Positions 3,066 through 20,179 of a stretch of DNA of 20,179 nucleotides are shown one piece after another; the first letter of the stretch is position 1; each line of letters opens with the position of its first letter. The notes under the pieces were generated by a model. It made no database searches, had not been told where the DNA came from, and saw only the letters and a list, made by a program, of their open reading frames with translations. Both the position numbers and the translations under genes were made by a program. The stretch is from the NCBI GenBank assembly GCA_022562375.1, contig JADFPK010000002.1, positions 1-20,179 of the forward strand, written 5' to 3'. This stretch comes from Pseudomonadota bacterium (GTDB lineage Bacteria; Pseudomonadota; Alphaproteobacteria; SMXQ01).

Positions 3066-3497
3066 TCAGGCCGGCCCCAAGGTGGCGAGCAGCACCAGGA
3101 CGACGATCAGCGCGATCATCTGGGCGAGGTTGATCGACACGCTTAGGCGATGGAGCCGGGCGAACCGCGCCGTCGCCGCTTGGTCCCCCGCCGCCCTTCC
3201 TTCCTTGGCCTCATTGATCCGTGGCACCAGGATCTGGCGCACGCCCGCGAACGCCAAGGCGACGAATAGGAGCAAGCCGCCCGGGATCGCGCCGACCGGC
3301 AACGACAGTCCCGCCGAGATCAGCGCGCAGACGGTCCCCCAAAGGTAATAGCGGGGGAAAACGCCGCGCAGATACTGGCCCGCCACGTCGGAGGGCAGGA
3401 ACTTGAAGACGGCGGGCGCGGTGACGGCGGCGAAGAAGATCATGCTTCCCAACAGGAAGCTCGCGGCGATGACGGGCAGGATCGGCGGGACCGACAT
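3066..3497 (-). CDS. DUF4149 (TMEM205-like) inner-membrane protein
   Basis: A 143-aa integral membrane protein with about four hydrophobic segments, near residues 6-28, 50-68, 72-88 and 119-140. Family-typical features are visible: VPRINEA after the third segment and FARLHRLSVSINLAQM leading into the fourth. The biochemical role of DUF4149 proteins is unknown. AAGG lies about 10 bases before the ATG. The gene lies 35 bases past the stop of the FadE-type gene on the same strand, so it is probably the last gene of the fatty-acid operon. No hairpin with a T tract follows, so where the transcript ends is unclear. Confidence 0.85.
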   Translation of the reverse strand: MSVPPILPVIAASFLLGSMIFFAAVTAPAVFKFLPSDVAGQYLRGVFPRYYLWGTVCALISAGLSLPVGAIPGGLLLFVALAFAGVRQILVPRINEAKEGRAAGDQAATARFARLHRLSVSINLAQMIALIVVLVLLATLGPA

Positions 3498-3532: not shown

Positions 3533-5953
3533 TTAGCCCTTGAGCGAATCATAGGTGTCGGTGTCGTAGGCGCTGACCTGGATGACCGCGTCGCGCGCCT
3601 CCTCGGCCGCCTCGTCGCGCCGGCGCTCGTCCGCCGTGATGATGCCCTTGGCCCCGGCGCGTTCGGCGAGGGTGTCCGCCGGCCCGGCCTCGAGATCGCC
3701 GGCGCGAACCGCGTCGCGGATCTTTATTCGCACGCCTCGCGCCGCGAGGACGAGTTCAAGCGCCGCCTCGAGCTTACCCAGGCCGTCCTCATCCGCGCCG
3801 GGAACGAAGATGTCGGCGCTGAGTCGCACGCGTGCTTCATTGCCGTCGAGCAGGCCCCGCGCCACCTCGGCGCCGAGATCGTCTGCCGGCGGCCTCGCGC
3901 GGGAGCCCAGGGGAAAGGCGAGAAGACGCACCAGCGCCGCCGCCGGGCGGTTGGGCAGGTTGTCCAGCACGCCCCGAAGGGCGTCTTCGATCTTGTAAAG
4001 GGCCAGATCGCAGGACCATCTGAGGAACGGAAGATCGCTCCCCGGGCGGCCGTCATCGACGAAGCGCTTGAGCGCGGCGGAGGCGAGATACATCCACGCC
4101 AGGGCGTCGGCGAGGCGCCCGCTGATCTTCTCGCGCCGCTTGAGCGCCCCGCCCATGGTGCCGAGCGCGGTGTCGGTGATCAGCGCGAAGGCGGCGCTCA
4201 AGCGCGTCAAGGCGCGGAAATAGGGGGCGGTCGAGCTTCCCTCCGGTACCTTTGCCAGGCGGCCCCGGGTGATGGCCAGCCCGAACGCCCTGACGGCGTT
4301 CGAGAATACGAACCCCAGATGGCCGAAGAAGGCGGCATCGAAGCGGCCAAGGTCGTCCTCCGCGATCGCCTGCATCTCGTCCTGGACGAAGGGATGGCAG
4401 CGGATCGACCCCTGGCCGAAGATGATCAGCGACCGGGTCAGGATGTTGGCGCCCTCGACGGTGATGCCGATGGGGACGGCGGTGTAGATCCTCGAGAGGT
4501 TGTTGCCGGGCCCCCGGCAGACGGCGGCGCCGGCGAGGATGTCCATGGCGTCGGCGACGCACGCGCGCATGCTTTCGGTGAGGTAGGCCTTGACGATGGC
4601 CGAGGGAACCGCCGGTTTCTCGCCGGCGTCGACGGCGCCGCAGGTCAGCACCCGGGCGGCGTTCATCATATAGGCGTGGCCGCCGATGCGGGCCAGCGCC
4701 TCCTCGATGCCCTCGAAGCGGCCGATCGGCATGGAGAACTGCTCGCGGACGGTGGCGTAGGCGCCGGTGGTGCGCGCCGCCAGCTCGATCGCCGCCACCG
4801 ACAGCGCCGGCAGCGAAATCGCCCGGCCCACCGCCAGGCAGTCCATCAGCATGCGCCAGCCCTGGCCGACGCCGTCGACCCCGCCGATGATGAAATCGAG
4901 CGGCACGAAGACGTCCGTCCCGGTGATCGGCCCGTTCTGGAACGCCACCCCCATGGGGTCGTGCCGATCGCCGATGCCGATGCCGGGAATGTCGCGGGGG
5001 ATCAGGGCGCAGGTGATGCCGCGGTCCTCCTCGCCGCCCAAAAGCCCGTCCGGGTCGAGCAGACGGAAGGAGAGGCCGATGACGGTGGCCACCGGGGCGA
5101 GGGTGATGTAGCGCTTCTGCCAGTTGAGCCGTATGCCGGTCACTTCCTTGCCGTCGAAGGTGCCCAGGCCGACGACGCCGGTCGCCCGCCCCGACGCCGC
5201 GTCGGAACCGGCGTGGGGTTCGGTGAGGGCGAAGCAGGGGACCTCCTCGCCCTTCGCCAGGCGCGGCAGGTAGTGATCCTTCTGCGCCTCGGTGCCGTAA
5301 TGCAAAATCAGTTCCGCCGGGCCGAGCGAGTTCGGGACCATCACGGTGCAGCCGGCGGCGACGCTGCGGCTCGAGACCTTGGTGACGACGGCGGAGTTGG
5401 CGATGGCCGAGAAGCCGAGACCGCCATATTCCTCGGGCACGATCATGCCGAAGAAACGCTCGCGCTTCATGAACTCCCAGGCCTCGGGGGAAAGATCGCG
5501 GGCTTGGGCGATGTCCCAGTCGTCGATCATCCGGCAGAGCTCCTCCACCGGCCCGTCGAGGAAGGCCTGTTCGCGTTCGGACAAGGGCCGCGGTTTGAAG
5601 TCGAGGAGCCACCGCCAGTCGGGGTTGCCCGAGAACAACTCGCCGTCCCACCACACCGTCCCGGCCTCCAGCGCGATGCGCTCGGTCTCGCCGATGCGCG
5701 GCAGGAAGGAACGCACCAGCCCCATGACCGGCGCCGCGAACAGGCGCCGGCGGATCGCCGGGACGCCGAACGATATGGCGAGGGCGAAGGCCGCGATCGC
5801 CGCCACGGCGAAGGCCACCGGCGTTTCGACGCCGGTGAGCGCCCAGGCGCCGAGCCCGACGACCAGGACCGAGACCCAGGCCCAATAGCCGTGTCCCATA
5901 TAGAGAAAACCTACGAACAGGACGGCGGCGAGGATCAGGAAGATCGGCGTCAT
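3533..5953 (-). CDS. fadE: FadE-type acyl-CoA dehydrogenase
   Basis: FAD-dependent enzyme for the first step of beta-oxidation, acyl-CoA to trans-2-enoyl-CoA. At 806 aa it has the long FadE architecture (E. coli FadE is of similar size) rather than the 380-aa short form. Residues 1-65 form two or three hydrophobic segments, so it should be anchored in the inner membrane and pass electrons toward the quinone pool. The central dehydrogenase domain shows PEEYGGLGFSA near 173, FALTEPHAGSD near 241 and TVEGANILTRSLI with the probable catalytic base E500. About 300 further residues match the FadE C-terminal extension. The ATG lies three bases past the stop of the upstream FadN-type gene, so translation is likely coupled. 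The assignment is secure; chain-length preference is not visible. Confidence 0.95.
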   Translation of the reverse strand: MTPIFLILAAVLFVGFLYMGHGYWAWVSVLVVGLGAWALTGVETPVAFAVAAIAAFALAISFGVPAIRRRLFAAPVMGLVRSFLPRIGETERIALEAGTVWWDGELFSGNPDWRWLLDFKPRPLSEREQAFLDGPVEELCRMIDDWDIAQARDLSPEAWEFMKRERFFGMIVPEEYGGLGFSAIANSAVVTKVSSRSVAAGCTVMVPNSLGPAELILHYGTEAQKDHYLPRLAKGEEVPCFALTEPHAGSDAASGRATGVVGLGTFDGKEVTGIRLNWQKRYITLAPVATVIGLSFRLLDPDGLLGGEEDRGITCALIPRDIPGIGIGDRHDPMGVAFQNGPITGTDVFVPLDFIIGGVDGVGQGWRMLMDCLAVGRAISLPALSVAAIELAARTTGAYATVREQFSMPIGRFEGIEEALARIGGHAYMMNAARVLTCGAVDAGEKPAVPSAIVKAYLTESMRACVADAMDILAGAAVCRGPGNNLSRIYTAVPIGITVEGANILTRSLIIFGQGSIRCHPFVQDEMQAIAEDDLGRFDAAFFGHLGFVFSNAVRAFGLAITRGRLAKVPEGSSTAPYFRALTRLSAAFALITDTALGTMGGALKRREKISGRLADALAWMYLASAALKRFVDDGRPGSDLPFLRWSCDLALYKIEDALRGVLDNLPNRPAAALVRLLAFPLGSRARPPADDLGAEVARGLLDGNEARVRLSADIFVPGADEDGLGKLEAALELVLAARGVRIKIRDAVRAGDLEAGPADTLAERAGAKGIITADERRRDEAAEEARDAVIQVSAYDTDTYDSLKG

Positions 5954-5956
5954 CGC

Positions 5957-8284
5957 TCAGTTCCGCAAGGGTTTGCCGTTCTTGATCATGTGGGCGACGC
6001 GGGCGATGGAAGCGGGGTGATGCGCTAGCGCGATCAAGGCCTTGCGCTCGAGCGCCAGGAGATCGTCCTCGCCGATGGGTGCGAGGAAATCGGTGTCGCC
6101 GCCGGAAAGCACGCCGGCCAGGGCCTTGCCGATGGTGGCGTCATGCGCCGTCGCCTTGCCGCTAAGGCTGAGCCCGTCGAGGGCCATCGACATCGCCGCC
6201 AGCGCCGTCGGGCCGGGCAGCGACACCTCGGGCGCCTCGGGCGGCGTGTAATCCTCGGCCAGGGCCAGGGCCTTGGCCTTGGCGTCGGCTAACAGCCGGT
6301 CCCGGTTCATGGTGATGCCATCGGCCGGACGCAGCACCAGAAGATCCCGCGCTTGGGCCGCCGATTTCGCCACCACCGCCATGCCGATGGTCTCGAAGAC
6401 CTTGATCACCGGCGGCATCGGCCCGCCCGGGCGGTCGGGATTGGCGGTCCAGCGGATCAGCATCTCCTTGCATCCGCCCCAGGCGGGAACGATGCCGACG
6501 CCGACCTCGACCAGGCCGGTGTAGGTTTCGGCGTGGGCCTGCACGGCGTCGCAATGAAGCAGGACTTCGCAGCCGCCGCCGAGCGCCAGGCCCGACGGCG
6601 CGCCAACCACCGGGAAGGGGGCGTATTTGAGCGCCTTGTAGGCGTTCTGGCCGCGGCGTATCAGATAGTCGAGGGCGAACCAAAGCCTGAGCTTCATGGC
6701 GATGAGCAACAGGCCGATATTGGCGCCGGCCGAGAAGTTGGAGCCCTCGTTGTAGATGACCAGCGCCCGGTAGTTGCCCGGTATCAGCCGCACCGCCTTG
6801 TCGATCATGCCGAGCGAGAAGGGGTTGAGCGTGTTCATCTTGCTGTGGAACTCGAGGCAAAGGACGCCGTCGCCGATGTCCCAAAGACTGGCCGAGCGGT
6901 TCGCCGCCACCGGCTTCTGGCGGCGCTTGATGTCGGCCAGCAACAACACGCCGTCGGCGCGCCTGACGTCGGCATAATCGCCAAGGGCGGTCATGTATTG
7001 GAGCCGGCCGGCCTCGGTGCGGTAGAACGGACGCCCCGCCGCCACCTCCAGCAGCCGGGGCACGGGCCGGCCCTCGGCCTTGAGCCTATCGGCGAACCAA
7101 CCGCCGCCGAGCTTGTCGATCAGCTCGAACGGGCCGTAGCGCCAGGCGTAGCCGAGGCGCATGGCCTGATCGACGGCGACGATGTCATCGGCGATCTCGG
7201 GCACCAGATCGGCGGCGTAGGCGAGGGTGGCGGACAGCACCCGCCAGGCGTAGCGCCCGCCCTTGTCGGCGTGGGCGAGCAGCGCCCGCGGCCCGCCCTT
7301 GCGCGCCGCCCGGACGCTTTCGAGGTCCGGTTTCCCCGCCGCGCGGTATTCGCCGGTCGCCAGATCGCGCGCCTCCTTGATCCTTTCCGCCGTCTCGGGC
7401 TTGAGCCGGTAGAACCCGCCCTTGCCCTTGCGCCCGGTATAACCCTCCTCGATCATCCCGGCGATCAGCTTGGTTTCGCCCGAGACCTCATGGAAGGGGT
7501 CGTCCGCCGCCAGGGCCCCTTCCATGCTGGCGAGGATGTGGGGCATCAGATCGAGGCCGACCATGTCGAGCAGCCCGAACACCCCGGTCTTGGGGATGCC
7601 CACCGGCCGGCCCATCACGGCGTCCGCTTCCTCGACCGAGATGCCGTCCTCGATCGCCGCGATGACGGCGGATTGCAGCCAATAGATGCCGATCCGGTTG
7701 GCGATGAAGCCGGGCGTGTCCTTGGCGTCGACCACGCCCTTGCCCAGGCGGATATCGGCGAACCGGCGCACCGCCGCGACCTTTTGCGGGTCCGTTCGGG
7801 CGCCGGCGACGATCTCGATGAGGCGCATGTAGCGGGGCGGGTTGAAGAAATGGGTGATCAGGAAGTCGGCGGCGAAGCTCTCCGCCAGGCCCTCGGTCAG
7901 TACCGCCAGCGGCAGCGTCGAGGTGTTCGAAGAGACGATGGATGACGGCTTGCGGACGGCGTCGATCTTATGGTAGAGCGCGCGCTTGGGCTCGGCGCGC
8001 TCGATGATCGCCTCGACGATCCAATCGCAATCGGCGAGCAGGCCGATATCGTCCTCGATGTTGCCGGTGGTGACGCGGCCGGCGTTTCGCTTATGCATGA
8101 AGGGTGCGGGGTCGGCCTTGAGCATCCTCTCGACGGCGCCTTCGGCGATGGCGCTGCGGTTCGCGCCGTCCCGGGCGGCGATGTCGAGAAGCACCACCGG
8201 CACCCCGGCGTTGGCGATATGGGCGGCGATACCGGCGCCCATGACGCCGGCGCCGATCACCGCCGCCTTGCGGATTTCGCTCAT
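5957..8284 (-). CDS. fadN: 3-hydroxyacyl-CoA dehydrogenase / enoyl-CoA hydratase, FadN-type
   Basis: Bifunctional beta-oxidation enzyme of 775 aa. The NAD-binding hydroxyacyl-CoA dehydrogenase comes first (IGAGVMGAG at 10-18; catalytic HFFNPP with H145; SSNTST at 118-123) and the crotonase-type hydratase comes last. The hydratase has the oxyanion-hole region GLALGGGCE with E573 and the second catalytic Glu E593 in LVEVGVGIVPAWGG. This order is the reverse of FadB/FadJ and matches Bacillus FadN. The start is placed at the ATG at 8284, which overlaps the thiolase stop as ATGA and begins exactly at the Rossmann fold; an open frame further upstream adds only an Arg-rich nonsense leader. It hydrates enoyl-CoA and oxidises the 3-hydroxyacyl-CoA to 3-ketoacyl-CoA, the thiolase's substrate. 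Confidence 0.94.
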   Translation of the reverse strand: MSEIRKAAVIGAGVMGAGIAAHIANAGVPVVLLDIAARDGANRSAIAEGAVERMLKADPAPFMHKRNAGRVTTGNIEDDIGLLADCDWIVEAIIERAEPKRALYHKIDAVRKPSSIVSSNTSTLPLAVLTEGLAESFAADFLITHFFNPPRYMRLIEIVAGARTDPQKVAAVRRFADIRLGKGVVDAKDTPGFIANRIGIYWLQSAVIAAIEDGISVEEADAVMGRPVGIPKTGVFGLLDMVGLDLMPHILASMEGALAADDPFHEVSGETKLIAGMIEEGYTGRKGKGGFYRLKPETAERIKEARDLATGEYRAAGKPDLESVRAARKGGPRALLAHADKGGRYAWRVLSATLAYAADLVPEIADDIVAVDQAMRLGYAWRYGPFELIDKLGGGWFADRLKAEGRPVPRLLEVAAGRPFYRTEAGRLQYMTALGDYADVRRADGVLLLADIKRRQKPVAANRSASLWDIGDGVLCLEFHSKMNTLNPFSLGMIDKAVRLIPGNYRALVIYNEGSNFSAGANIGLLLIAMKLRLWFALDYLIRRGQNAYKALKYAPFPVVGAPSGLALGGGCEVLLHCDAVQAHAETYTGLVEVGVGIVPAWGGCKEMLIRWTANPDRPGGPMPPVIKVFETIGMAVVAKSAAQARDLLVLRPADGITMNRDRLLADAKAKALALAEDYTPPEAPEVSLPGPTALAAMSMALDGLSLSGKATAHDATIGKALAGVLSGGDTDFLAPIGEDDLLALERKALIALAHHPASIARVAHMIKNGKPLRN

Positions 8285-9420
8285 CCGGCGGCCTCGAGCA
8301 CGGTGGCGATCCCCTGGCCGCCGCCGATGCACTGGGTGGCCAGCGCGAAGGTACCGCCCTCGCGCCCGAGCAGCATCGCCGCCTTGCCGGTGATGCGCGC
8401 GCCGGTGGCGCCGAGCGGATGGCCGAGCGCGATGGCGCCGCCGTCGATATTGACCCGCGCGTGATCGAGTTCGAGGTCGCGAAGGCAGGCCAGGGACTGG
8501 GACGCGAAGGCCTCGTTGACCTCGGCGACGTCGATGTCGGCGATGGTCAAACCGGCGCGCTCCAGCGCCTTCCTCGACGCCGGCACCGGGCCGATGCCCA
8601 TGATCTCGGGCGCGCAGCCGGCGACGGCGATGCTCTTGATCCGGGCCAAGGGCGCCAGCCCGTTCGCCTTGGCGTAGTCCTCGCTGCAGACCAGTGTCGC
8701 CGCCGCCCCGTCGGTGAGCGGCGAGGACGTGCCGGCGGTGACGGTGCCGGCCTCATCGAAGGCCGGCTTCAGATCGGCCAGGCCCTGGGGCGTGGTGTCG
8801 GGCCTGAGGCAGCCGTCGGTATCGACCGTGGCGCCGTCCTTGGAGATCGCCACGATCTCGTCGGCGAGGCGGCCGGCGGCCTGGGCCTTGGCGGCGCGGG
8901 ACTGGGATTCGACGGCGAAGGCTTCCTGTTCCTCGCGGGTGATCTGATACTTCCTGGCGACGTTTTCGGCGGTCTCTCCCATCGAGATGTAGGCCTGGGG
9001 GTAGGATTCGTAGAGTTCGGGATGGGGCATCGGGTTATAGCCCATCATCGGCACCCTCGACATCGACTCGACGCCGGCACAGATGAAGGCGTTCCCGGCG
9101 TCCATTCGAATGGCGCCGGCGGCGATGTGGATGGCGTACATCGACGATCCGCAGAACCGGTTGACGGTGACGCCGGCGACGCTTTGCGGCAAGCGTGCGC
9201 GAAAGACCACGAGCCGCGCCATGTTCAGGCCCTGCTCGGCCTCAGGGAAGGCGCAGCCGAGGATCAGATCCTCGATATCGTCGGCATCGACGCCGGTCTT
9301 CGCCATCAGGCCCTTGACCACCTGGGCGGCAAGCTCGTCGGGCCGCACGTCTTTCAGCGCGCCTTTCTCGGCTGGTGTGAACGGAGACCGGGCATAGCCG
9401 GCGATCACGACGTTCTTCAT
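8281..9420 (-). CDS. fadA: Acetyl-CoA acyltransferase (thiolase), FadA-type
   Basis: Thiolytic cleavage of 3-ketoacyl-CoA to acetyl-CoA and a shortened acyl-CoA, the last beta-oxidation step. The 379-aa protein has the full thiolase length. The nucleophile C90 is in NRFCGSS, H334 in GGAIALGHPLGATGAR and C364 in ATQCIGGGQG. The start is the ATG at 9420, supported by GGAGGA eight bases upstream and by the normal N-terminus MKNVVIAGYARSPF; an upstream in-frame extension of 25 residues is unlike thiolases. It lies 22 bases after the ligase gene and overlaps the dehydrogenase/hydratase gene by four bases, so the two are probably translationally coupled subunits of one complex. Confidence 0.95.
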   Translation of the reverse strand: MKNVVIAGYARSPFTPAEKGALKDVRPDELAAQVVKGLMAKTGVDADDIEDLILGCAFPEAEQGLNMARLVVFRARLPQSVAGVTVNRFCGSSMYAIHIAAGAIRMDAGNAFICAGVESMSRVPMMGYNPMPHPELYESYPQAYISMGETAENVARKYQITREEQEAFAVESQSRAAKAQAAGRLADEIVAISKDGATVDTDGCLRPDTTPQGLADLKPAFDEAGTVTAGTSSPLTDGAAATLVCSEDYAKANGLAPLARIKSIAVAGCAPEIMGIGPVPASRKALERAGLTIADIDVAEVNEAFASQSLACLRDLELDHARVNIDGGAIALGHPLGATGARITGKAAMLLGREGGTFALATQCIGGGQGIATVLEAAG

Positions 9421-9442
9421 ATCCGAATCCTCCGTTGCGGCC

Positions 9443-11242
9443 TCATGTTTCGGCGGTCGGCGCCGGCTCGGGCTCCGCTTCGCTGGGGGTGTCACCGGCG
9501 ATCAATTCCTTCTTCGATATCTTGCCGATCAGGGTCATCGGCAGGGAGTCGCGGAACTCGATCTTGCGGGGCATCTGGAACGGCGCCAGCTTGTCCTTGA
9601 GGAAAACGCGCAAATCCCCGGCCGTCAACTCCTCGCCGTCACCGAGTTTGACGAAGGCCTTGACGATCTCTCCCCGGTGCCGGTCGGCAACACCGCAGAC
9701 CGCGACCTCCTCGACCGCCGGGTGCAGGTGGATCACCTCCTCGACCATGCGCGGGTAGACGTTGAAACCGCCCGACAGGATCAAGTCCTTGATCCGGTCG
9801 ACGACGAAAAGATAGCCGTCATCGTCGAGATAGCCGATATCGCCGGTGTGCAGGCGGCCGCCGCGAAAGACGTCGATGTTCTCCTTCGCCCGGTTGGCGT
9901 AGCCGGCCATCACCTGCGGGCCGCTGACGCAGACCTCGCCGCGATCGCCCAGCCCCAACACGCAGTCGGGGTTGTCCAGCGCGGTGATCTCGATCACCGT
10001 CGCCGGCAGGGGCAGGCCGGCCGAACCCGGTCTGCGCTCATCATTGATCGGGTTGACGGTGCAGACCGGACCGGTCTCGCTGAGCCCATAGCCCTCGACC
10101 AGGATGCAGCCGGTCCGTTCCTCGAACCGGCGATGGATTTCGACCGCCAACGGCGCGCCGCCGGAGATGCAGAAGACGAGGCTCGAGAGGTCGTAATCGG
10201 CGATGTCGCGGGCGGCGTTGAGGGCCGAAAACATGGTCGGCACGCCGATGAAGATGGTCGGCTTCTCGCGGTCGATGGCTTGGAGGACTTCGGCCGGCTT
10301 GAAATGCGGCAGCAGGATCAATTCGGCGCCGATGCCGAGACCCAAATTCATCACCGCGGTCATGCCGAAGGCGTGGAAGAGCGGCAACACGCCGAGGATC
10401 TTCTCCTCGCCCGGCCTGATGTCCGTCGCCCACATCTCGAGCTGCTTGGCGTTGGCGTAGAGGTTCGCGTGGGTGAGCCGGACGGCCTTGGGGAACCCGG
10501 TGGTGCCGCCGGTATATTGGAGCACGGCGACGTCGGTCTCGGGATCGATGGCGGCGACGTCGAGGACGCCGTCATTGTCGATCAGCTTGTCGAACGGCAG
10601 GTGGCGGTCGTCCTTGGGGATGGCGGCGACCTCGCGGCGTTTCAGGAGGTCGAACAGCACCTTCTCGGGGAACCGCAGCACGTCGCTCATCGAGCACACC
10701 ACGATCCGCTCCAGCCCTTCATCATTTTGGACCCTGGCCGCCACCTTGCGGTAGAGCCGCTTCATATTCAGGGTCACCAGGATGCAAAGCCCGGAATCGG
10801 CGATCTGGCGCTCGATCTCGCGTTCGGCGTAGAGCGGGTTGATGTTGACGACGGTGCCGCCGGCCTTGAGCACGGCGTAGAAACAAATCACCGCGTAAGG
10901 GGTGTTGGGCAGCATCAGGCCGACCTTGATGCCCTTGCGGACGCCGAGCGCCCGAAAGCCTTTCGCCGCGCGATCGACCATCCGGGCGACGTCGCGGTAG
11001 CGGGTGCGCCGGCCGCGGAAGCTGAGGCAGAAATTGTCGGGATAGGCGGCAACCGCGTCGTCGAGGAGCCGGGTCAGCGGCCTGGCCTCGAACGCCGCCG
11101 GCCATTCGACCCCCGCGGGATAGGATTTCTCCCACGGATAGGGCCGTTCCATGGGGGCGCTTTCGACGGCGCGCAGACGCCTGAACGGGGCGAGGACGGC
11201 GCGGACGGACCGGACGATGGCAGAGGTGAGGGGCATCAGCAT
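9443..11242 (-). CDS. fadD: Long-chain fatty acid-CoA ligase (FadD-like)
   Basis: ANL-superfamily ligase that activates free fatty acids to acyl-CoA through an acyl-AMP intermediate. With the 599-residue reading, the P-loop YTGGTTGFPK is at 243-252, GYGLSETGP at 384-392, TGD at 466-468, the hinge region DRIKDLILSGGFNVYP ends near 497, and the catalytic lysine is likely K574 in LIGKISKKEL. The start is uncertain. The ATG at 11242 adds an Arg-rich amphipathic stretch of 30 residues, whereas an internal ATG at 11152 begins MERPYPWEKSYP, the usual FadD N-terminus. Neither has a convincing Shine-Dalgarno sequence. The gene follows the acyltransferase-hydrolase fusion on the same strand with a gap of 37 bases (or 127 with the short start). 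Confidence 0.92.
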   Translation of the reverse strand: MLMPLTSAIVRSVRAVLAPFRRLRAVESAPMERPYPWEKSYPAGVEWPAAFEARPLTRLLDDAVAAYPDNFCLSFRGRRTRYRDVARMVDRAAKGFRALGVRKGIKVGLMLPNTPYAVICFYAVLKAGGTVVNINPLYAEREIERQIADSGLCILVTLNMKRLYRKVAARVQNDEGLERIVVCSMSDVLRFPEKVLFDLLKRREVAAIPKDDRHLPFDKLIDNDGVLDVAAIDPETDVAVLQYTGGTTGFPKAVRLTHANLYANAKQLEMWATDIRPGEEKILGVLPLFHAFGMTAVMNLGLGIGAELILLPHFKPAEVLQAIDREKPTIFIGVPTMFSALNAARDIADYDLSSLVFCISGGAPLAVEIHRRFEERTGCILVEGYGLSETGPVCTVNPINDERRPGSAGLPLPATVIEITALDNPDCVLGLGDRGEVCVSGPQVMAGYANRAKENIDVFRGGRLHTGDIGYLDDDGYLFVVDRIKDLILSGGFNVYPRMVEEVIHLHPAVEEVAVCGVADRHRGEIVKAFVKLGDGEELTAGDLRVFLKDKLAPFQMPRKIEFRDSLPMTLIGKISKKELIAGDTPSEAEPEPAPTAET

Positions 11243-11279: not shown

Positions 11280-13652
11280 TCAGACGGCGGTTCGAACATC
11301 GGTCTCTCCCGGCGCCACCTTCGCTTCCTCGGGCGCTTCCTCGGGCGCGTCCTCGGGCGGCGAAGCGGGGTCGGTAACTTGGGACGCCAGATTGGTGAGG
11401 AACGAGATCAGCAATTCCTGGGTGCCGCCGGTGTCATCGGCCAGGATCCCGTGGCGTTTCGACGGGATCATGTGCAAGCGCTTGTCCTCGCATCCCAGCT
11501 TGTCGAAGACGATCTCGGCGCTCTTGGCGTCGACGATCTCATCCTCGGTGCCCTGGACGAGCCGGACCGGGCAGGTGACGTCGGGCAGGCGTTTGGTCAG
11601 CTCGTCGACCAGCCGGCGCAACTCGAACAGCCCGCGTATGGGTATATGGCGGTAATTGACCTCGGGGTTTTCGGAATCGTTGGGCCGGAACGGCATCAGA
11701 CCCTCGAGCGAGGACACCCATCGGGTCAGCTTGTTGACGCCGTGGAGGACCGGCACGAAGACGATGTTGCGGTTGCGGAACTTGACCGGGACGGCGACGG
11801 CGCCGACGCCGATCAGCTTCCGGGGCCGCTCCGCCGCGAACCGCAAGGCCAGCGCGCCGCCGGTCGAGAACCCGGCGAGGAAAATGCGGTCCGCCAGCCC
11901 CGACATGATCTCGTAACCCCGCCGGACCGATCCCAGCCAGTCCTCCCAGCTTCGGCCGCGAAGGTCCCAGGGCGAAGTCCCGTGACCGCTGAGGCGGACG
12001 CCGATGACGGCGAACCCGAGGGCCTCCAGCTTTTCGCCGAAGGCCCTGAGCTCGGCCGGAGAGGCGAGAAAGCCGTGCACCAGCACGACGCCGGTCCCGT
12101 TCGCGGTCTCGGGCATCAGCAGATAGGGCTCGCCGCTTTTGGTCGCCGTCTCCCGGTCGTTGATCTTGGCATGCCGGGGCCGTGAATAGTGCTCCTGGCA
12201 CCAGGCGAAGGCGCGGATCTCGTCGTCGAACCGGAGCCGCGCCAGCGCCGCCCCGTCCATCGCCGGGGCAGACTCGACGGCCTGCTCGACGGCCCGGCGC
12301 GCGGCTTTCACCGGCGCCACCTCGTTGGCGTAGACGGTCACCAGGTTCTCGAGCCGGACCTCGTGATGGGCATGTTCCTCCAGCAGCTTGGGCAGGAAAC
12401 GGTAGCGCTTCTCGGTGATCTCGATCAGGCCGATGCGGGTGGTGGTGTGCAGGAACTGCTCGAAGCCGCCGGTGCCGTCCCTCAGGATGCCGCCATAGAC
12501 CTCCGGGTTGGTCAGGCCCCGGTGCAGGTGAATGGAGGGTTCCCGCTGGGCGTTCTTGATCGCCAGATAAAGCAACCGGTGAAAGCGGTCGTGATCGATC
12601 TCCGTCAACCCGGCGTCGAGCAGCTTGAGGATCAGCCGCGAGGCCAGGTGAGAGAGGTTGACGGTGACGTTGGCGTACATCTCGTGCATGTAGCGGTCGC
12701 GCAGCCGCGCCGTTTCGCGTCCCATCGCCTTCGACACCATGCGCTCGACCCAGCGCCCCTGATCCGGCTTCAGGGCGAACAATTCGGACAAGCTGTCGAT
12801 TCTCTCGAACACCCGGTTGAGCACCGCCCGTTCGAACCAGTTCCAGGCGATACCCGGGGCGATCGGGTGGCCGAACCGGATGTCCATGTCGGTGCGCTTC
12901 AACAAGATGTTGCCCTCGATCAGCAACTCGTCCTTGACACTGTCGGGGATGCCGCCGCCGAACATCTCGGCCGCCTTGCGCAGGATGTTGTCGTCGGTGC
13001 GCACCGGCCAGAAGGTGATGTTGGCGGGCACGATCAGCGTCGGTTTCCGGGCGGCGGCGATCAGCGCGTCGATGTCGTCCATGCCCAGCGCGTCGACCCA
13101 TCGCCTCAGCCTCTCGGTCCCTTGGGCCTCATGCACCGAGAGAATGCGTTTCTTGAAGATCTCGAGCGTCAACGCCATCGCCGCCGCCCCCTTGTGGTGC
13201 TTGCGCCGGATGCGGTCGATCTGCGAAAAGATCGAGAACCGGCCCTCCTCGTCCAGCACCCGGCGGTCCTTGACCATGCCGCCCTCGGGAAAGAAGATCA
13301 CCTTGCGTCCGCGCAATATCTCGGCGGCGAGGAAGGGCAACAGGCCCGGGTGATCGGTGGGCACGGCGCCGACGCTCCACAGGAACTTGGCGAAGGTCTC
13401 GTTGCCCTCGAACAGGTCCGCCGAGGCGACGCAGCGGCAGTAGGCGCCGGTCGCCTGATGGATGAGGTATTGCGGGATAATGGTTTCGAAGCGGGCGAAG
13501 TGGTTGAACAGGAAAATCTGGCCGGCCTCGATGTGGCCGTCGTCGTCGTGGACCTTGATGTTGATCTTGAGGCGGTCGTGCAGGAACGAGAACGCGCGCA
13601 CGCACCATTGATAGGTGGTCTCGTTGATGTCGAACGCGGGGTCGTCGCTCAT
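11280..13652 (-). CDS. Acyltransferase (PlsB/PlsC-like) fused to an alpha/beta hydrolase
   Basis: A 790-aa two-part protein heading the fatty-acid operon. Numbering here is from a TTG 15 bases upstream; subtract 5 for the ATG used. The N-terminal half carries glycerolphosphate-acyltransferase motifs: NHFARFE with H56 and E61 (HX4E where the family normally has HX4D), FFPEGG at 125-130 followed by MVKDRR, and IVPANITFWPVR near 212. A helical stretch of about 200 residues without recognised motifs follows. The C-terminal part (about 510-765) is a serine hydrolase with HGF at 531-533, nucleophile S601 in GFSTGG, D709 (or D713) in GTEDEIVD and H739 in KRHG. The tail is Glu/Pro-rich. The ATG at 13652 has GAAAGA about 8 bases upstream. 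The likely activity is transfer and/or release of acyl chains on membrane lipids; the actual substrates are unknown. Confidence 0.85.
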   Translation of the reverse strand: MSDDPAFDINETTYQWCVRAFSFLHDRLKINIKVHDDDGHIEAGQIFLFNHFARFETIIPQYLIHQATGAYCRCVASADLFEGNETFAKFLWSVGAVPTDHPGLLPFLAAEILRGRKVIFFPEGGMVKDRRVLDEEGRFSIFSQIDRIRRKHHKGAAAMALTLEIFKKRILSVHEAQGTERLRRWVDALGMDDIDALIAAARKPTLIVPANITFWPVRTDDNILRKAAEMFGGGIPDSVKDELLIEGNILLKRTDMDIRFGHPIAPGIAWNWFERAVLNRVFERIDSLSELFALKPDQGRWVERMVSKAMGRETARLRDRYMHEMYANVTVNLSHLASRLILKLLDAGLTEIDHDRFHRLLYLAIKNAQREPSIHLHRGLTNPEVYGGILRDGTGGFEQFLHTTTRIGLIEITEKRYRFLPKLLEEHAHHEVRLENLVTVYANEVAPVKAARRAVEQAVESAPAMDGAALARLRFDDEIRAFAWCQEHYSRPRHAKINDRETATKSGEPYLLMPETANGTGVVLVHGFLASPAELRAFGEKLEALGFAVIGVRLSGHGTSPWDLRGRSWEDWLGSVRRGYEIMSGLADRIFLAGFSTGGALALRFAAERPRKLIGVGAVAVPVKFRNRNIVFVPVLHGVNKLTRWVSSLEGLMPFRPNDSENPEVNYRHIPIRGLFELRRLVDELTKRLPDVTCPVRLVQGTEDEIVDAKSAEIVFDKLGCEDKRLHMIPSKRHGILADDTGGTQELLISFLTNLASQVTDPASPPEDAPEEAPEEAKVAPGETDVRTAV

Positions 13653-13709
13653 CGGCCGATCTTTCAACCGCGGCCGGTTCTCCCTCCACCTTGGCCCGGT
13701 GGTTCAGTC

Positions 13710-13741
13710 TCCTATAAATAGGATAGTATGGTTAAATACAA
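13710..13741 (-). promoter_or_regulatory. Candidate promoter and palindromic operator of the fatty-acid operon
   Basis: On the minus strand TTGTAT (13741-13736) is followed after 15 bases by TATTTA (13720-13715), an AT-rich promoter-like pair 60-90 bases before the operon's first ATG. The palindrome TCCTATAAATAGGA occupies 13710-13723 and covers the presumed -10, a good position for a repressor. A CtrA-like half-site TTAACCAT lies at 13728-13735 between the two hexamers. The spacer is shorter than ideal, so the exact promoter is uncertain, but this is the only AT-rich patch in the upstream region. Confidence 0.45.
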
Positions 13742-13843
13742 TACCGGTCTCGCGGGTTCCGCCGCCCGTGCCGTCGGCGGCGCACCCATGACCGACCGGG
13801 ACGCCCGAGCACAATCCGTAAAATTCCCTAACTCATCGAAAAT

Positions 13844-13890
13844 TGGCGCAACCGGCGGGATTCGAACCCGCGGCCGCTGCCACCGGCGGA
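13844..13890 (-). pseudogene. Degraded 3' part of a tRNA-Arg-like gene
   Basis: On the minus strand the 3' part of a tRNA is present: the 3' side of the anticodon stem (GGCAG), variable loop, an intact T arm with stem GCGGG/CCCGC around TTCGAAT, the acceptor 3' strand CGGTTGC, discriminator G and encoded CCA. Bases 13844-13886 match 38 of 43 bases of the intact tRNA-Arg at 16822-16864, and the T-stem differences are compensatory. No 5' acceptor strand GCAACCG and no D arm follow; similarity fades at the anticodon loop, where CCG is still recognisable. It cannot be a working tRNA. Either a decayed tRNA gene or the duplicated 3' end left by an integrative element. Confidence 0.65.
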
Positions 13891-13909
13891 TTGTGCTAAT
13901 AACCGTTCC

Positions 13910-15799
13910 ATGCTGCGGATCGACGACCTGACCTGCCGGATCGGCGGGCGGACCCTGATGGAGGGCGCCCGGCTGTCGGTGCCGGGGGGCGCCAAGGTCG
14001 GGCTGGTGGGGCGCAACGGCGCCGGCAAGACCACCCTTCTGCGCCTCATCGCCGGAGAGCTGCAGCCCGATGCGGGCCATATCGACGTTCCGGCCAGGAC
14101 CCGCATCGCGGTCATGTCCCAGCAGGCGCCCGATGGGCCTGAAAGCCTGCTCGACGCGGTGCTCGCCGCCGATGGGGAACGCACCCGGCTGCTGGCGGCA
14201 GCCCAATCGGCGGCCGACCCCCACCATATGGGCGAGATCCACGCCCGTCTCGCCGACATGGACGCCCATGGGGCGCCGGCCCGCGCCGCCACCATCCTGG
14301 CCGGGCTGGGCTTCCCCGAGGCGGCGCAGTCGGGGTCTTGCTCGGCGCTGTCGGGCGGCCTTCGCATGCGCATCGCGCTGGCCCGGGTGCTGTTCGCCGA
14401 ATCGGATCTGTTGCTGCTGGACGAGCCCAGCAACCATCTGGATCTGGAGAGCACCGGGTGGCTGGAAACATACCTGGCGTCCCATTCCGGCACCCTGATT
14501 CTGGTCAGCCACGACCGCCGGCTGCTCGACCGGGTGACCCGGCGCACCGTGCACCTGACAGGCGGACGGCTGGACTCCTACCGCGGCGGCTATTCCACCT
14601 TCGAGCGCACGCTCCGGGAGCGCCGCCAAAGCCAGCGCCGCGCCGCCGCCCGGCTGGCCGGACAACGCCGCCGCATGACCGCCTTCATCGAACGCTTCCG
14701 CGCCAAGGCGACGAAGGCGCGCCAGGCGCAAAGCCGGATCAAGATGCTGGAGCGTCTCGAGCCCGCCGTGCCGGTCATCATCGAGACGCCGGTGAATTTC
14801 GATTTCCCCGAACCGGAGGCACTGCCGCCGCCGGTGCTGACGCTCGACCGTGCCGCGGTCGGTTACGGCGATGGGCCGGCGGTCCTCACCGGCCTCGATC
14901 TCCGCATCGACATGGACGACCGCATGGCGCTGGTGGGGCGCAACGGCAACGGCAAGTCGACCCTGGCGCGGCTCCTGGCGGGCCGGCTGGACGCCTCGGC
15001 CGGCACGGTGCGCCGGGCGCGCAAGCTACGCATCGGCTATTTCGCCCAGCACCAGACCGAGGAGCTGGATCTGGCCGCCAGCGGTTACCGGCATCTGGCA
15101 CGGCTCGAGCCCGACACGGGGGAGCCGAGGCTGCGCGCCCACCTCGGCCGCTTCGGGTTCTCGGGCGATGGCGCCGATGTCCCGGCCGGCCGGCTTTCCG
15201 GCGGCGAGAAAGCGTGCCTCCTGCTGGCGCTCATGAGCCGCGCCGCGCCCCATATGCTGATCCTCGACGAGCCCACCAACCATCTCGACATCGAGGCGCG
15301 GGAGGCCTTCGCGGCGGCGCTCAACGCCTTTTCGGGGGCGGTGGTGCTGATCACCCACGACGCCCATCTGATCGCCCTCTGTGCCGAGCGGCTCTACCTG
15401 GTGGCGGACGGCACCTGCCGGCCCTTCGACGGCGATATCGACGCCTATATGGCGTGGTCGCTGACGACGGAGGCAAAGCCCAAGGCCGCGCCCCACGCCA
15501 GCGGCCGGCAAAAGGAATCCCGCCGCGACGTCCGCCGCCGGGCGGCCAAGGCGCGCGCCGGGCTGACACGGCTGAGACGCGAAATCGGCGATGCCGAAGC
15601 CGGCCTCGAAGCGGTCGGCGCCGAGAAGGCGGAGATCGAGAGACGCCTGGCCGATCCGGCGGTCTATGACGGCCCCGCGGACGCGCTCGGCGAACTCCTC
15701 AAACGCCAAGGCGAGATCGCCAGGCGTTTCGCCGAGGCCGAAGCCCGATGGCTCGCCGCCCAGGAGGCGTTGGAAGCGGCCCGCATTTCAACAAGTTAG
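13910..15799 (+). CDS. ABC-F family ATPase (YheS/Uup-like)
   Basis: A 629-aa soluble protein with two ATP-binding cassettes and no membrane segments. Domain 1 has Walker A GRNGAGKTT at 34-42, signature LSGG at 147-150 and Walker B ending DEPSNHLD at 171-178. Domain 2 has GRNGNGKST at 343-351, LSGGE at 429-433 and DEPTNHLD at 453-460. An Arg-rich linker joins them (about 228-290), and a charged C-terminal coiled coil covers about 530-625. This is the YheS-like layout. ABC-F proteins bind the ribosomal E site and relieve stalled translation; some confer antibiotic resistance, but nothing here points to resistance. The ATG has no Shine-Dalgarno sequence and sits 20 bases past a tRNA remnant. A weak AGCCG/CGGCT hairpin overlaps the stop codon. 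Confidence 0.93.
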   Translation: MLRIDDLTCRIGGRTLMEGARLSVPGGAKVGLVGRNGAGKTTLLRLIAGELQPDAGHIDVPARTRIAVMSQQAPDGPESLLDAVLAADGERTRLLAAAQSAADPHHMGEIHARLADMDAHGAPARAATILAGLGFPEAAQSGSCSALSGGLRMRIALARVLFAESDLLLLDEPSNHLDLESTGWLETYLASHSGTLILVSHDRRLLDRVTRRTVHLTGGRLDSYRGGYSTFERTLRERRQSQRRAAARLAGQRRRMTAFIERFRAKATKARQAQSRIKMLERLEPAVPVIIETPVNFDFPEPEALPPPVLTLDRAAVGYGDGPAVLTGLDLRIDMDDRMALVGRNGNGKSTLARLLAGRLDASAGTVRRARKLRIGYFAQHQTEELDLAASGYRHLARLEPDTGEPRLRAHLGRFGFSGDGADVPAGRLSGGEKACLLLALMSRAAPHMLILDEPTNHLDIEAREAFAAALNAFSGAVVLITHDAHLIALCAERLYLVADGTCRPFDGDIDAYMAWSLTTEAKPKAAPHASGRQKESRRDVRRRAAKARAGLTRLRREIGDAEAGLEAVGAEKAEIERRLADPAVYDGPADALGELLKRQGEIARRFAEAEARWLAAQEALEAARISTS

Positions 15800-16821: not shown

Positions 16822-16898
<77 letters not shown>

Positions 16899-18091: not shown

Positions 18092-18119
18092 TTGATTGTG
18101 CCGCGGCAATGGGTATCAT
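18092..18119 (+). promoter_or_regulatory. Candidate sigma-70 promoter for the zinc-finger gene and polA
   Basis: TTGATT at 18092-18097 and TATCAT at 18114-18119 are separated by 16 bases, each matching four or five of six consensus positions. Transcription would start near 18126, leaving a leader of about 47 bases before the ATG at 18173. It is the best promoter-like pair in the gap between the divergent genes. Confidence 0.45.
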
Positions 18120-18172
18120 CCGCCTGACATTGTCGTCAATGGCCGGCTCGGGGACAAGGATTGGAACGGATC

Positions 18173-18364
18173 ATGGCGGTGGAAGACGCAACCGAAATCG
18201 AGACCATCACCGTCGCCCGCAAAGGCGTCGACTGCGACGGCGGCGGCGGCGTGCTCGGGCACCCCAAGGTCTACCTCAATCTCGGCGAGGATGGCGAGAC
18301 CGCCTGCCCCTATTGCGGGCGCCGCTTTGTGTTTAGAGACGATGGCATGAGTGGTGGAGGATAG
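18173..18364 (+). CDS. CHCC-type zinc-finger protein (NDUFS6-like)
   Basis: A 63-aa protein with the Cys-His-Cys-Cys pattern of zf-CHCC: Cys in VDCDG, His in LGHPKVYLNL, and the pair CPYCG near the C-terminus. This domain is shared with the NDUFS6 (13-kDa) subunit of mitochondrial complex I, and free-standing copies are common in alphaproteobacteria. A role in complex I or in general metal/protein binding is inference. The ATG at 18173 is preferred over a TTG four codons upstream, but the ribosome binding site is weak. The stop TAG directly abuts the GTG of polA, and the end of this gene supplies polA's Shine-Dalgarno sequence, so the two form an operon. Confidence 0.88.
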   Translation: MAVEDATEIETITVARKGVDCDGGGGVLGHPKVYLNLGEDGETACPYCGRRFVFRDDGMSGGG

Positions 18365-20179
18365 GTGAGCGCGCTCAAGGCCAGGGAGGGGACCGGGAGG
18401 CCGGCGCGGGTCTTCCTGGTCGACGGATCGGGCTACATTTTCCGCGCCTATCATGCATTGCCGCCGATGAACCGGCGCGACGGCACGCCGACCAACGCGG
18501 TGTTCGGCTTCTGCAACATGCTGATGAAGCTGTTGGAGGACACCGAGGCCGATTACCTCGCCGTCATTTTCGACGCCGCGCGGCGGAATTTCCGCAACGA
18601 CATCTATCCCGATTACAAGGCCAACCGGCCCGACGCGCCCGAGGATCTGGTGCCCCAGTTCGAACTCATCCGCGAGGCGACGCGCGCCTTCAACGTGCCG
18701 TGCCTGGAGATGGAGGGGTACGAGGCCGACGATCTGATCGCCACCTACGCGCGGGAAGCCGAGGCCGAGGGCGCCGAGGTCACCATCTTGTCGTCGGACA
18801 AGGATATGATGCAGCTGGTGACGGACGCCATCACCATGATGGACCCGATGCGCAACCGCCGCATCGGCGCCGGGGAAGTGCGCGAGAAGTTCGGCGTCGG
18901 GCCGGACAAGGTGATCGATGTCCAGGCGCTGGCGGGGGATTCGACCGACAACGTGCCGGGCGTCCCGGGGATCGGGGTCAAGACCGCGGCGGAGTTGATC
19001 AACACCTACGGCGATCTCGATCAGGTGTTGGCCAGGGCTTCGGAGATCAAGCAGCCCAAGCGCCGCGAGAACCTCATCGCCTTCGCCGATCAGGCGCGCA
19101 TTTCCAGGGACCTGGTGCGGCTCAAGGACGACGTGCCGGTGACCGAGCCGCTCAGCTCCTTCGGCCTGCGCCCGCCCGACCCGGAAACCCTGGTGGGGTT
19201 CCTCCGCGCCCAGGATTTCGTCCGCCTCACGGCGCGCATCGAAAGCAAGCTCGCCGCCGAGGGGGTGACGCTCGAAGGCGCGATTGGCGGCGCCGACGCC
19301 GCCGAACCGGCGCCCGAGGCGAAATCCTACGAACCGGTCCAGGAGGTGGGGGCGCTGAAGGAGTGGATCGCCCGCGCGCACGCCGCCGGCACCGTCGCCG
19401 TCGATACCGAAACCACCTCGCTCGACGCCATGCGCGCCGATCTCGTCGGCGTGTCGCTGTCGGTCAGCGCCGGCAAGGCGTGCTACATCCCGCTGGGCCA
19501 CCGCCAGGCCCCGGCGCAGGGCGACCTCGACCTCGGTGACGGCGGGTCTTCGCCACGCCGAAGCGGCTCCGGCCGCGCAGGCGGGCAGGCGAAGGAGGTG
19601 AAGGGCGCGAACGGCCAAGGCGCGCCGAAGCAGGTGCCCTTCGATCGGGCGCTCGCGCTCCTCAAGCCCCTGTTCGAGGACGCTTCCGTGCTCAAGGTCG
19701 GGCACAACATCAAATACGACGCCCAGGTGCTGGCGCGTTACGGCATCGCCCTGCGGCCGGTCGATGACACCATGGTGCTGTCCTACGTGCTCGAGGGCGG
19801 CCTGCACCGCCATGGCCTCGATGAGTTGGCCGCCCTTCATCTTGGCCACCAGACGATCAAATACGCCGACGTCGCAGGATCCGGCAGGAAACAGGTGAGC
19901 TTCGAATACGTGCCGCTGGCGGCCGCCGTCGATTACGCCGCCGAGGACGCCGACATCACCGGCCGGCTTCACCGGCTGCTCAAGCCCCGTCTCGCCAAGG
20001 AATGCATGGTCACGGTCTACGAGACCCTGGAGCGGCCGTTGATCGCGGTGCTGAGGGAGATGGAGCGCGCCGGCATCAAGGTCGACAAGGCCGAGCTCGA
20101 GGCGTTGAGCGAGGACTTCGCCGGCCGGCTGGTGGTGCTGGAGAAGGAGATCCATGGACTCGCCGGGCGCCCGTTCAAC
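18365..20179 (+). CDS. polA: DNA polymerase I (3' end beyond the window)
   Basis: The first 605 codons of a protein that should be over 900 aa; the frame is open to the last base. The 5'-nuclease (FEN) domain covers 1-300, with VFLVDGSGYIFRAYHA from 16, ADDL at 121-124, SSDKD at 143-147 and GDSTDN at 191-196. The 3'-5' exonuclease domain keeps its metal-binding residues: DTET (D347, E349), GHNIKYD (D452) and DYAAED (Y524, D528), so proofreading should be active. The polymerase domain begins near 545. A Gly/Ser/Arg-rich stretch at about 382-421 makes the exonuclease loop some 20 residues longer than usual. The GTG start touches the preceding stop and has GGAGG about 4 bases upstream. The function is replication and repair gap filling. 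Confidence 0.97.
   Translation, partial: MSALKAREGTGRPARVFLVDGSGYIFRAYHALPPMNRRDGTPTNAVFGFCNMLMKLLEDTEADYLAVIFDAARRNFRNDIYPDYKANRPDAPEDLVPQFELIREATRAFNVPCLEMEGYEADDLIATYAREAEAEGAEVTILSSDKDMMQLVTDAITMMDPMRNRRIGAGEVREKFGVGPDKVIDVQALAGDSTDNVPGVPGIGVKTAAELINTYGDLDQVLARASEIKQPKRRENLIAFADQARISRDLVRLKDDVPVTEPLSSFGLRPPDPETLVGFLRAQDFVRLTARIESKLAAEGVTLEGAIGGADAAEPAPEAKSYEPVQEVGALKEWIARAHAAGTVAVDTETTSLDAMRADLVGVSLSVSAGKACYIPLGHRQAPAQGDLDLGDGGSSPRRSGSGRAGGQAKEVKGANGQGAPKQVPFDRALALLKPLFEDASVLKVGHNIKYDAQVLARYGIALRPVDDTMVLSYVLEGGLHRHGLDELAALHLGHQTIKYADVAGSGRKQVSFEYVPLAAAVDYAAEDADITGRLHRLLKPRLAKECMVTVYETLERPLIAVLREMERAGIKVDKAELEALSEDFAGRLVVLEKEIHGLAGRPFN

Follow-up and report, generated by a model that had tools for sequence, protein, structure and literature searches.

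A conserved acyltransferase-hydrolase fusion heading a beta-oxidation gene run in an alphaproteobacterial contig: a putative acyl-CoA-using acyltransferase with an HX4E motif

The window analyzed here, the whole of a 20,179-nucleotide stretch of alphaproteobacterial DNA (contig JADFPK010000002.1), carries on its minus strand at 11280..13652 the gene of a 790-amino-acid protein, designated AH, in which an acyltransferase-like N-terminal half is joined to a serine alpha/beta-hydrolase half. The gene opens a co-directional run that comprises a full beta-oxidation set. In our tentative view, held at somewhat below even chances, AH is an acyl-CoA-using acyltransferase that would compete with beta-oxidation where it lies in a fad operon, its lipase domain being accessory and serving to trim, to edit or, where the nucleophilic serine is lost, only to bind. 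An acyl-CoA-using acyltransferase is favoured because the acyltransferase motif does not change among the relatives and because AH is repeatedly fused to an acyl-CoA ligase.

In the scheme considered, FadD, adjoining or fused, would make acyl-CoA, and the N-terminal half, with its GPAT1-like fold and HX4E motif, would move the acyl chain from acyl-CoA onto a lipid acceptor, H51 serving as the base, partnered by E56 or by a different conserved acid. The C-terminal half, where its serine is present, would strip acyl chains again from mono-acyl lipid. The window copy, in which both sites are complete, may run both reactions. At the head of a fad operon AH would form a branch point at which acyl-CoA is esterified or burned, or an Aas-like salvage step for lysophospholipid. 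GPAT1 likewise competes for acyl-CoA beside mitochondrial oxidation.

The coordinates of AH correspond to translation from an ATG at which most of the 31 other homologue rows also begin in the alignment; the open reading frame (ORF) list places the start at a TTG five codons upstream (795 amino acids), from which the preliminary description of this DNA had counted, so that its residue numbers are higher by five. Its proposal of one polypeptide with an acyltransferase and a serine hydrolase is borne out by Pfam: PF01553 (Acyltransferase) matches residues 32-163 (13164..13559; E 1.8e-5, 25.0 bits, above the cut-off of 23) and PF12146 (Hydrolase_4) matches residues 522-739 (11436..12089; E 2.2e-23), the latter being like bacterial monoacylglycerol lipases.

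A protein search with AH scored 7,999 candidates and gave 1,917 matches at E <= 1e-3, with lengths of 668-1,371 amino acids among the 120 listed; since, in addition, 31 aligned homologues share 55-91% identity, the fusion is beyond chance. The locus set comprised the best 80 of 261 confirmed genome stretches and five more loci (L081-L085), together 85 loci that encode 84 different proteins, since L001 and L081 give the same one. At least 700 amino acids precede the first stop in 83 of the 85, the remaining two (L054 and L077) running into a contig end, and only two of the 120 listed relatives of the N-terminal half have stand-alone length without being marked partial (P0124, 462 amino acids; P0135, 479 amino acids); these two may be genuinely split proteins or products of broken gene calls. 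Homologs are thus mostly fused and not two genes; a chance fusion or a sequencing error, the latter foreseen as an objection in the preliminary description, is ruled out by the 83 long frames, and AH is confirmed as a real, conserved fusion.

The acyltransferase motif I of AH, NHFARFE at residues 50-56, is HX4E and not HX4D (H51 to E56, 13485..13502), with Glu in the place of Asp as had been noticed initially. It is invariant in the window and the 85 loci (86/86) and is kept in all 174 protein-search rows with a letter there, the 175-row protein alignment including the window twice (as WIN and P0001). The motif III-like FPEGG (residues 121-125, 13278..13292) is equally firm in its Glu (E123, 86/86), and K128 is present in 175/175 rows. 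Three residues after this Glu, where AH has M126, Met stands in 163 of the 175 rows and Arg in none; 13 rows have Arg at residue 125. The motif II region reads GAVPTDH and lacks the usual Arg, again as first described: between residues 95 and 102 Arg occurs in none of the 175 rows and Lys only twice, at 100, while Arg at residue 103 is found in 32 rows, the window AH not among them. In GPAT/AGPAT enzymes the Arg three residues after the motif III Glu is essential, Arg residues in motifs II and III are needed in human AGPAT1, and these two motifs serve acceptor binding (excerpts of PMC4280512). Given the missing Arg residues, the predicted acceptor of AH is probably other than glycerol-3-phosphate or lysophosphatidic acid.

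The predicted model of the N-terminal half matches acyltransferase folds, a match whose failure had been named beforehand as an argument against the domain assignment. It matches the GPAT1-type fold with both its acyltransferase and its C-terminal part: structure 8e4y aligned over model residues 1..463, and a mostly helical region at residues ~301-463 (12264..12752) is positioned like the C-terminal part of GPAT1. At the lax threshold of E <= 1, PF01553 is matched by 39 of 44 N-terminal halves (best 5.9e-9), and GPAT_C (PF19277) by one of 44, weakly, at E 0.074. An hhalign comparison with four proteins from the same class that carry GPAT_C gave a probability of 0.7%, and the N-half profile found no match at E <= 1 among PDB sequences. 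From GPAT1 and PlsB, AH differs in motif I (HX4E for HX4D), in lacking the Arg of motif II and in having Met where motif III has its Arg; its profile comparison with PlsB was also not significant. A housekeeping GPAT or LPAAT role was also considered for AH and is unlikely, because PlsY and further PF01553 proteins are present in all five genomes checked. Four proteins of ~480-520 amino acids (L122, L123, L124 and L126), from the same class as genome G001, carry partial GPAT_C, an HX4D motif (NHRSNMD) and a motif III without RSR; by sequence they form another divergent stand-alone GPAT-like group.

Gene context was counted at 69 loci, those for which 1,500 bases or more of downstream sequence were available, a ligase being taken as next if it lay within 400 bases at >30% identity; neighbouring genes were called greedily as the longest ORFs, some of them antisense (at L026 and L067 among others). 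The ligase is next in 21 loci and fused in frame in nine, a thiolase follows directly in one, and none of these is found in 38 (23 labelled gamma, four beta, four Acidobacteria, three alpha, three 'Proteobacteria' and one other), L057 and L063 being counted here and not as ligase fusions. The nine acyltransferase-hydrolase-ligase ORFs (eight alphaproteobacterial by label, one 'Proteobacteria') span 1,313-1,384 amino acids with no internal stop, and further three-part proteins were met in protein searches (P0061, P0080, P0119-P0121 and P0176). On the 84-row tree the fused state requires four changes, three of them forced by starred branches, gains and losses not being separable. This recurrent joining or splitting of AH and the ligase is fair evidence that both act on one acyl chain, and the link to the ligase seen in the window is supported by these counts.

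The situation differs in gamma- and betaproteobacteria: no fad neighbour lies directly downstream in 27 of 29 loci so labelled with 1.5 kb of sequence, which speaks against a conserved one there. The two exceptions are Methylococcaceae (L039 and L047; ligase next, 34-35% identity), and an AMP-ligase lies 1.5-2.3 kb downstream in L020 and L025. Seven Sedimenticola loci (L048, L052, L055, L056, L058, L072 and L076) have an AMP-ligase just upstream on the same strand, with 24-25% identity to the window FadD, which looks like an acetyl-CoA synthetase because ACAS_N was found in L048, where the domains were checked. Ten neighbours from six loci encode DUF294/CBS, RNase_T, acetyl-CoA-synthetase-like, NYN, PilZ, Rce1-like, GGDEF, CoA_binding_2 and QueG proteins and one without a match; apart from the exceptions above, the immediate neighbours scanned in these classes are unrelated.

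The hydrolase half has an alpha/beta-hydrolase fold of the monoacylglycerol-lipase type, and its closest structures are monoacylglycerol lipases. The triad reported earlier for the window AH is complete and, renumbered from the ATG, consists of S596 in GFSTG (11865..11867), D704 (11541..11543) and H734 (11451..11453), in place of S601, D709 and H739. Of the two acids then offered, D709 or D713, the first stands: it corresponds to D704, the likely triad acid since it is kept in 84/84 locus rows with a letter (as is H734, 84/84), whereas D713, now D708, is kept in only 50/84. The serine is less constant. It is present in 81 of 85 locus rows with a letter, and the four Kiloniella loci all have Ala instead (GFATG) and keep D704, H734 and HX4E as well as FadD, FadA, FadN and FadE behind AH.

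In the protein set, Ser is replaced by Ala or Gly in 13 of 173 tree rows, namely P0088, P0121, the Kiloniella group, which includes a sequence labelled Dongshaea marina, and a cluster of four rows with one near-identical pair; P0139, which looks misaligned or broken at the site, was left out of this count, and P0075, which lacks its N-terminus, was also dropped. The Ser-less label requires four changes on the FastTree tree, three forced by starred branches; this tree carries a warning of joined long branches. Provided that the serine was never regained, the changes amount to three or four losses. The domain is not simply decaying, since D704 and H734 stay in all 13 Ser-less rows. In 31 listed Ser-less pairs the ratio of hydrolase to N-half divergence was 1.07-1.59 in 27 and 2.1-2.6 in three, one pair being identical, against a background median of 1.01 (5-95% range 0.73-1.42, n=1,110 pairs); the hydrolase half thus appears to diverge faster relative to the N-terminal half in Ser-less rows, most single pairs lying within the background range and the pairs not being independent. 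A non-catalytic role of the Ser-less domain is plausible by analogy with ABHD5, which has Asn in place of the nucleophile Ser and acts as a lipase co-activator (excerpt of PMC8850477). The single row of Dongshaea marina (P0148) lies inside the Ser-less Kiloniella group. We take this species to be a gammaproteobacterium, and such a placement would suggest horizontal transfer.

These losses bear on the view, put forward in the preliminary description, that AH releases fatty acids straight into degradation: the hydrolase would free them from mono-acyl or lyso lipids, FadD would activate them and the operon would burn them, the acyltransferase being secondary. The complete triad of the window AH, the serine in 81/85 rows, the monoacylglycerol lipases as nearest structures, the co-directional ligase, thiolase, hydratase/dehydrogenase and acyl-CoA dehydrogenase genes and the three-part fusions with the ligase all speak for it. 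Against it, HX4E is better conserved than the serine, the four Kiloniella loci keep the operon without that serine, and in 38/69 loci the gene directly behind AH is neither a ligase nor a thiolase. An operon without the serine in Kiloniella, together with a triad without an adjacent operon in the 27 gamma- and betaproteobacterial loci, argues against a general pipe from lipase to oxidation; as a general function this route is not supported, and we regard it as unlikely. The other role then suggested, a valve balancing acyl-CoA and lipid, fits better.

The acyltransferase half could instead be dead and serve as an acyl-CoA- or membrane-lipid-binding platform regulating the hydrolase or the ligase, which we consider rather unlikely. 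In human AGPAT1 activity was lost when the motif I Asp was changed to Glu, and not even Lys could stand in for the motif III Arg (excerpts of PMC4280512), and AH has Met at the place of this Arg in most rows. LpxL, however, carries HX4E, and its H132A and E137A changes lower activity 1000- and 3000-fold (excerpt of PMC6286764); moreover, HX4E in every row while the hydrolase serine drifts is unlike the pattern expected of a dead site. HX4E as a new motif is ruled out, since LpxL and LpxM carry it (excerpt of PMC6286764). It is, as judged from motifs, unusual within GPAT/AGPAT and not across the wider fold. In the LpxM structure the His bonds an Asp and not the Glu, which is 7.6 A away from it (PMC6286764, in excerpt), and for HtrB/MsbB an acid in block 3 has been put forward in the PatA paper (excerpt of PMC4792965). 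As another acid is perhaps at work in LpxL and LpxM, HX4E alone is evidence neither of inactivity nor of novelty. The motif is what AH has in common with these proteins; PF03279 is matched neither by AH (E <= 0.001) nor by the N-terminal halves (E <= 1), and we know of no hydrolase half in LpxL or LpxM.

Improbable is a one-polypeptide transacylase, in which the hydrolase would strip one lipid of an acyl chain for the acyltransferase to pass to another acceptor: both domains do lie in one chain and such a scheme is known for plant ELT/phytyl ester synthases, but AH belongs to a different acyltransferase family, Ser-less lineages keep the rest of the protein, and the ligase link points to acyl-CoA as the donor. 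The plant ELT (esterase/lipase/thioesterase-family) proteins with an acyltransferase domain and the phytyl ester synthases PES1 and PES2, compared here together with the cyanobacterial MFAT slr2103, resemble AH in architecture, and ELT proteins and related MFATs make neutral esters (excerpts of PMC12048435). Their acyltransferase is DGAT2-related, and no DAGAT match was obtained for AH (E <= 0.001) or the N-terminal halves (E <= 1). In the plant proteins the hydrolase comes first.

Among the other known systems, Aas of E. coli (2-acylglycerophosphoethanolamine acyltransferase/acyl-ACP synthetase) is close in logic: it combines acyltransferase and ligase in one chain, as do the nine three-part relatives of AH, and activation followed by re-esterification fits AH with FadD. 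The lipase domain is found in AH only, and the ligase, a separate FadD-like gene in the window, is fused in 9/85 related loci with the hydrolase in between. The monoacylglycerol lipases of Geobacillus (5xks) and Bacillus H257 (3rm3) have the fold and the Ser-Asp-His triad in common with AH, for which monoacylglycerol hydrolysis is a prediction; in AH this hydrolase sits behind an acyltransferase and lacks the serine in some lineages. ABHD5/CGI-58 and ABHD16A are alpha/beta-hydrolase proteins with an acyltransferase motif, as in AH, and the Asn-for-Ser change of ABHD5 parallels Ser-less AH (excerpts of PMC8850477, PMC4706320 and PMC9725753), their HX4D being a short motif within the hydrolase protein and not a separate GPAT-like domain. 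No paper on the AH fusion was found among the matches listed in the open PMC literature, subscription papers not being covered. The fusion is apparently unstudied, acyltransferase-hydrolase proteins (ELT/PES, ABHD16A and ABHD5) and acyltransferase-ligase proteins (Aas) being already known.

Several points weigh against AH as an acyl-CoA-using acyltransferase competing with oxidation. Its activity is a prediction from sequence. AH itself is not among the PF01553 matches in three of five genomes, and an hhalign comparison with 15 PlsB proteins gave a probability of 0.4% (E 0.14), which rules out PlsB membership by sequence. Given the LpxM geometry and the PatA proposal, H51 may have a direct partner other than E56, and the AGPAT1 mutants cited above mean that the N-terminal half could be inactive. 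At best, an oxidation branch point would apply to some lineages, because AH does not directly precede a ligase or thiolase in 38 of 69 loci, and the window's own copy has its triad complete.

A broader version of the proposal, doubtful though appreciable in our estimate, is that AH represents an undescribed acyl-CoA partitioning family. Its acyltransferase, GPAT1-like and with the invariant His-Glu motif, would use an acceptor lacking phosphate and work with FadD, and on more than one occasion the lipase domain would have become a Ser-less pseudo-hydrolase that binds or regulates without cutting, as happened to ABHD5 in animals. If AH acts as proposed, some proteobacteria would choose at the first step of fatty-acid use, by one fad-operon enzyme, between burning acyl-CoA and returning it to lipid. 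The natural Ser-less copies would allow the two halves to be separated without design work, and the HX4E site would offer a test of how much variation the catalytic motif of GPAT tolerates.

The run behind AH in the window, where a ligase and then a beta-oxidation set had been foreseen, lies wholly on the minus strand. The AMP-binding, FadD-type acyl-CoA ligase (9443..11242, 599 amino acids; ORF list, Pfam and NCBIfam) starts 37 bases past the AH stop and resembles E. coli FadD (35% identity, E 5.9e-104, 315 bits) more closely than Aas (7e-30, 113 bits; 28% identity over part only). It is followed by the FadA thiolase (8281..9495; TIGR01930, 439 bits, over the cut-off), whose listed start is probably too far upstream, by a FadN-type 3-hydroxyacyl-CoA dehydrogenase/enoyl-CoA hydratase (5957..8332), which stays below the NCBIfam cut-offs (best NF052272, 468.6 bits against 999), and by the FadE acyl-CoA dehydrogenase of the ACDH_C type (3533..5953; NF007000, 1059 bits, over the cut-off). 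A DUF4149 protein (3066..3497; ORF list, Pfam), 35 bases after FadE, is the probable last gene; DUF4149 also lies behind FadE in L001 and L002 and at none of the other loci compared in this respect, the sequence of many of them ending earlier. No LplT-type transporter is found among the ten window proteins scanned.

The AH gene is widespread but patchy. The best 80 genome stretches come from alpha-, gamma- and betaproteobacteria and a few assemblies labelled Acidobacteria or Nitrospinota, which may be mis-binned. Among 398 Pseudomonadota genomes drawn, 157 had a match; five of the matches extend over the greater part of the model (G001, G248, G358, G362 and G163), the other listed ones being confined to the hydrolase half. 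The locus from G163 (L085) is a very distant relative (~24-30% identity, branch 6.8), yet NHFTRME and GFSAG are both retained in it. Three of 61 relatives of the nearest genome have AH at E <= 1e-40: both members of the genus and one more distant genome, but none of nine other family members. The FadN gene is found at E <= 1e-100 in four of 21 relatives, three of which also carry AH, on different contigs in G415; these genomes are too few to claim co-inheritance. In G409, a relative without AH, FadA-FadN is present with no AH or FadD match in the 15 kb of sequence covered. AH matched 163 plasmid records; in every one of them less than 80% of the query is covered, and the ten that were listed align with the hydrolase part only.

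A scan of 13600-13960, upstream of AH, found no promoter or terminator. Between AH and the divergent ABC-F gene, at 13841-13890 on the minus strand, lies a T-arm-like stretch resembling the 3' half of a tRNA; ARAGORN called no tRNA there, and it may be what is left of a tRNA, or the trace of an attachment site. A tRNA-Arg gene (anticodon ccg) is located at 16822-16898 on the minus strand. Farther on, at 18116-20155 on the same strand, a 679-amino-acid ORF has no Pfam or NCBIfam match at E <= 0.001, and a stretch 84% identical to it is present in L001, ~3 kb from its AH gene.

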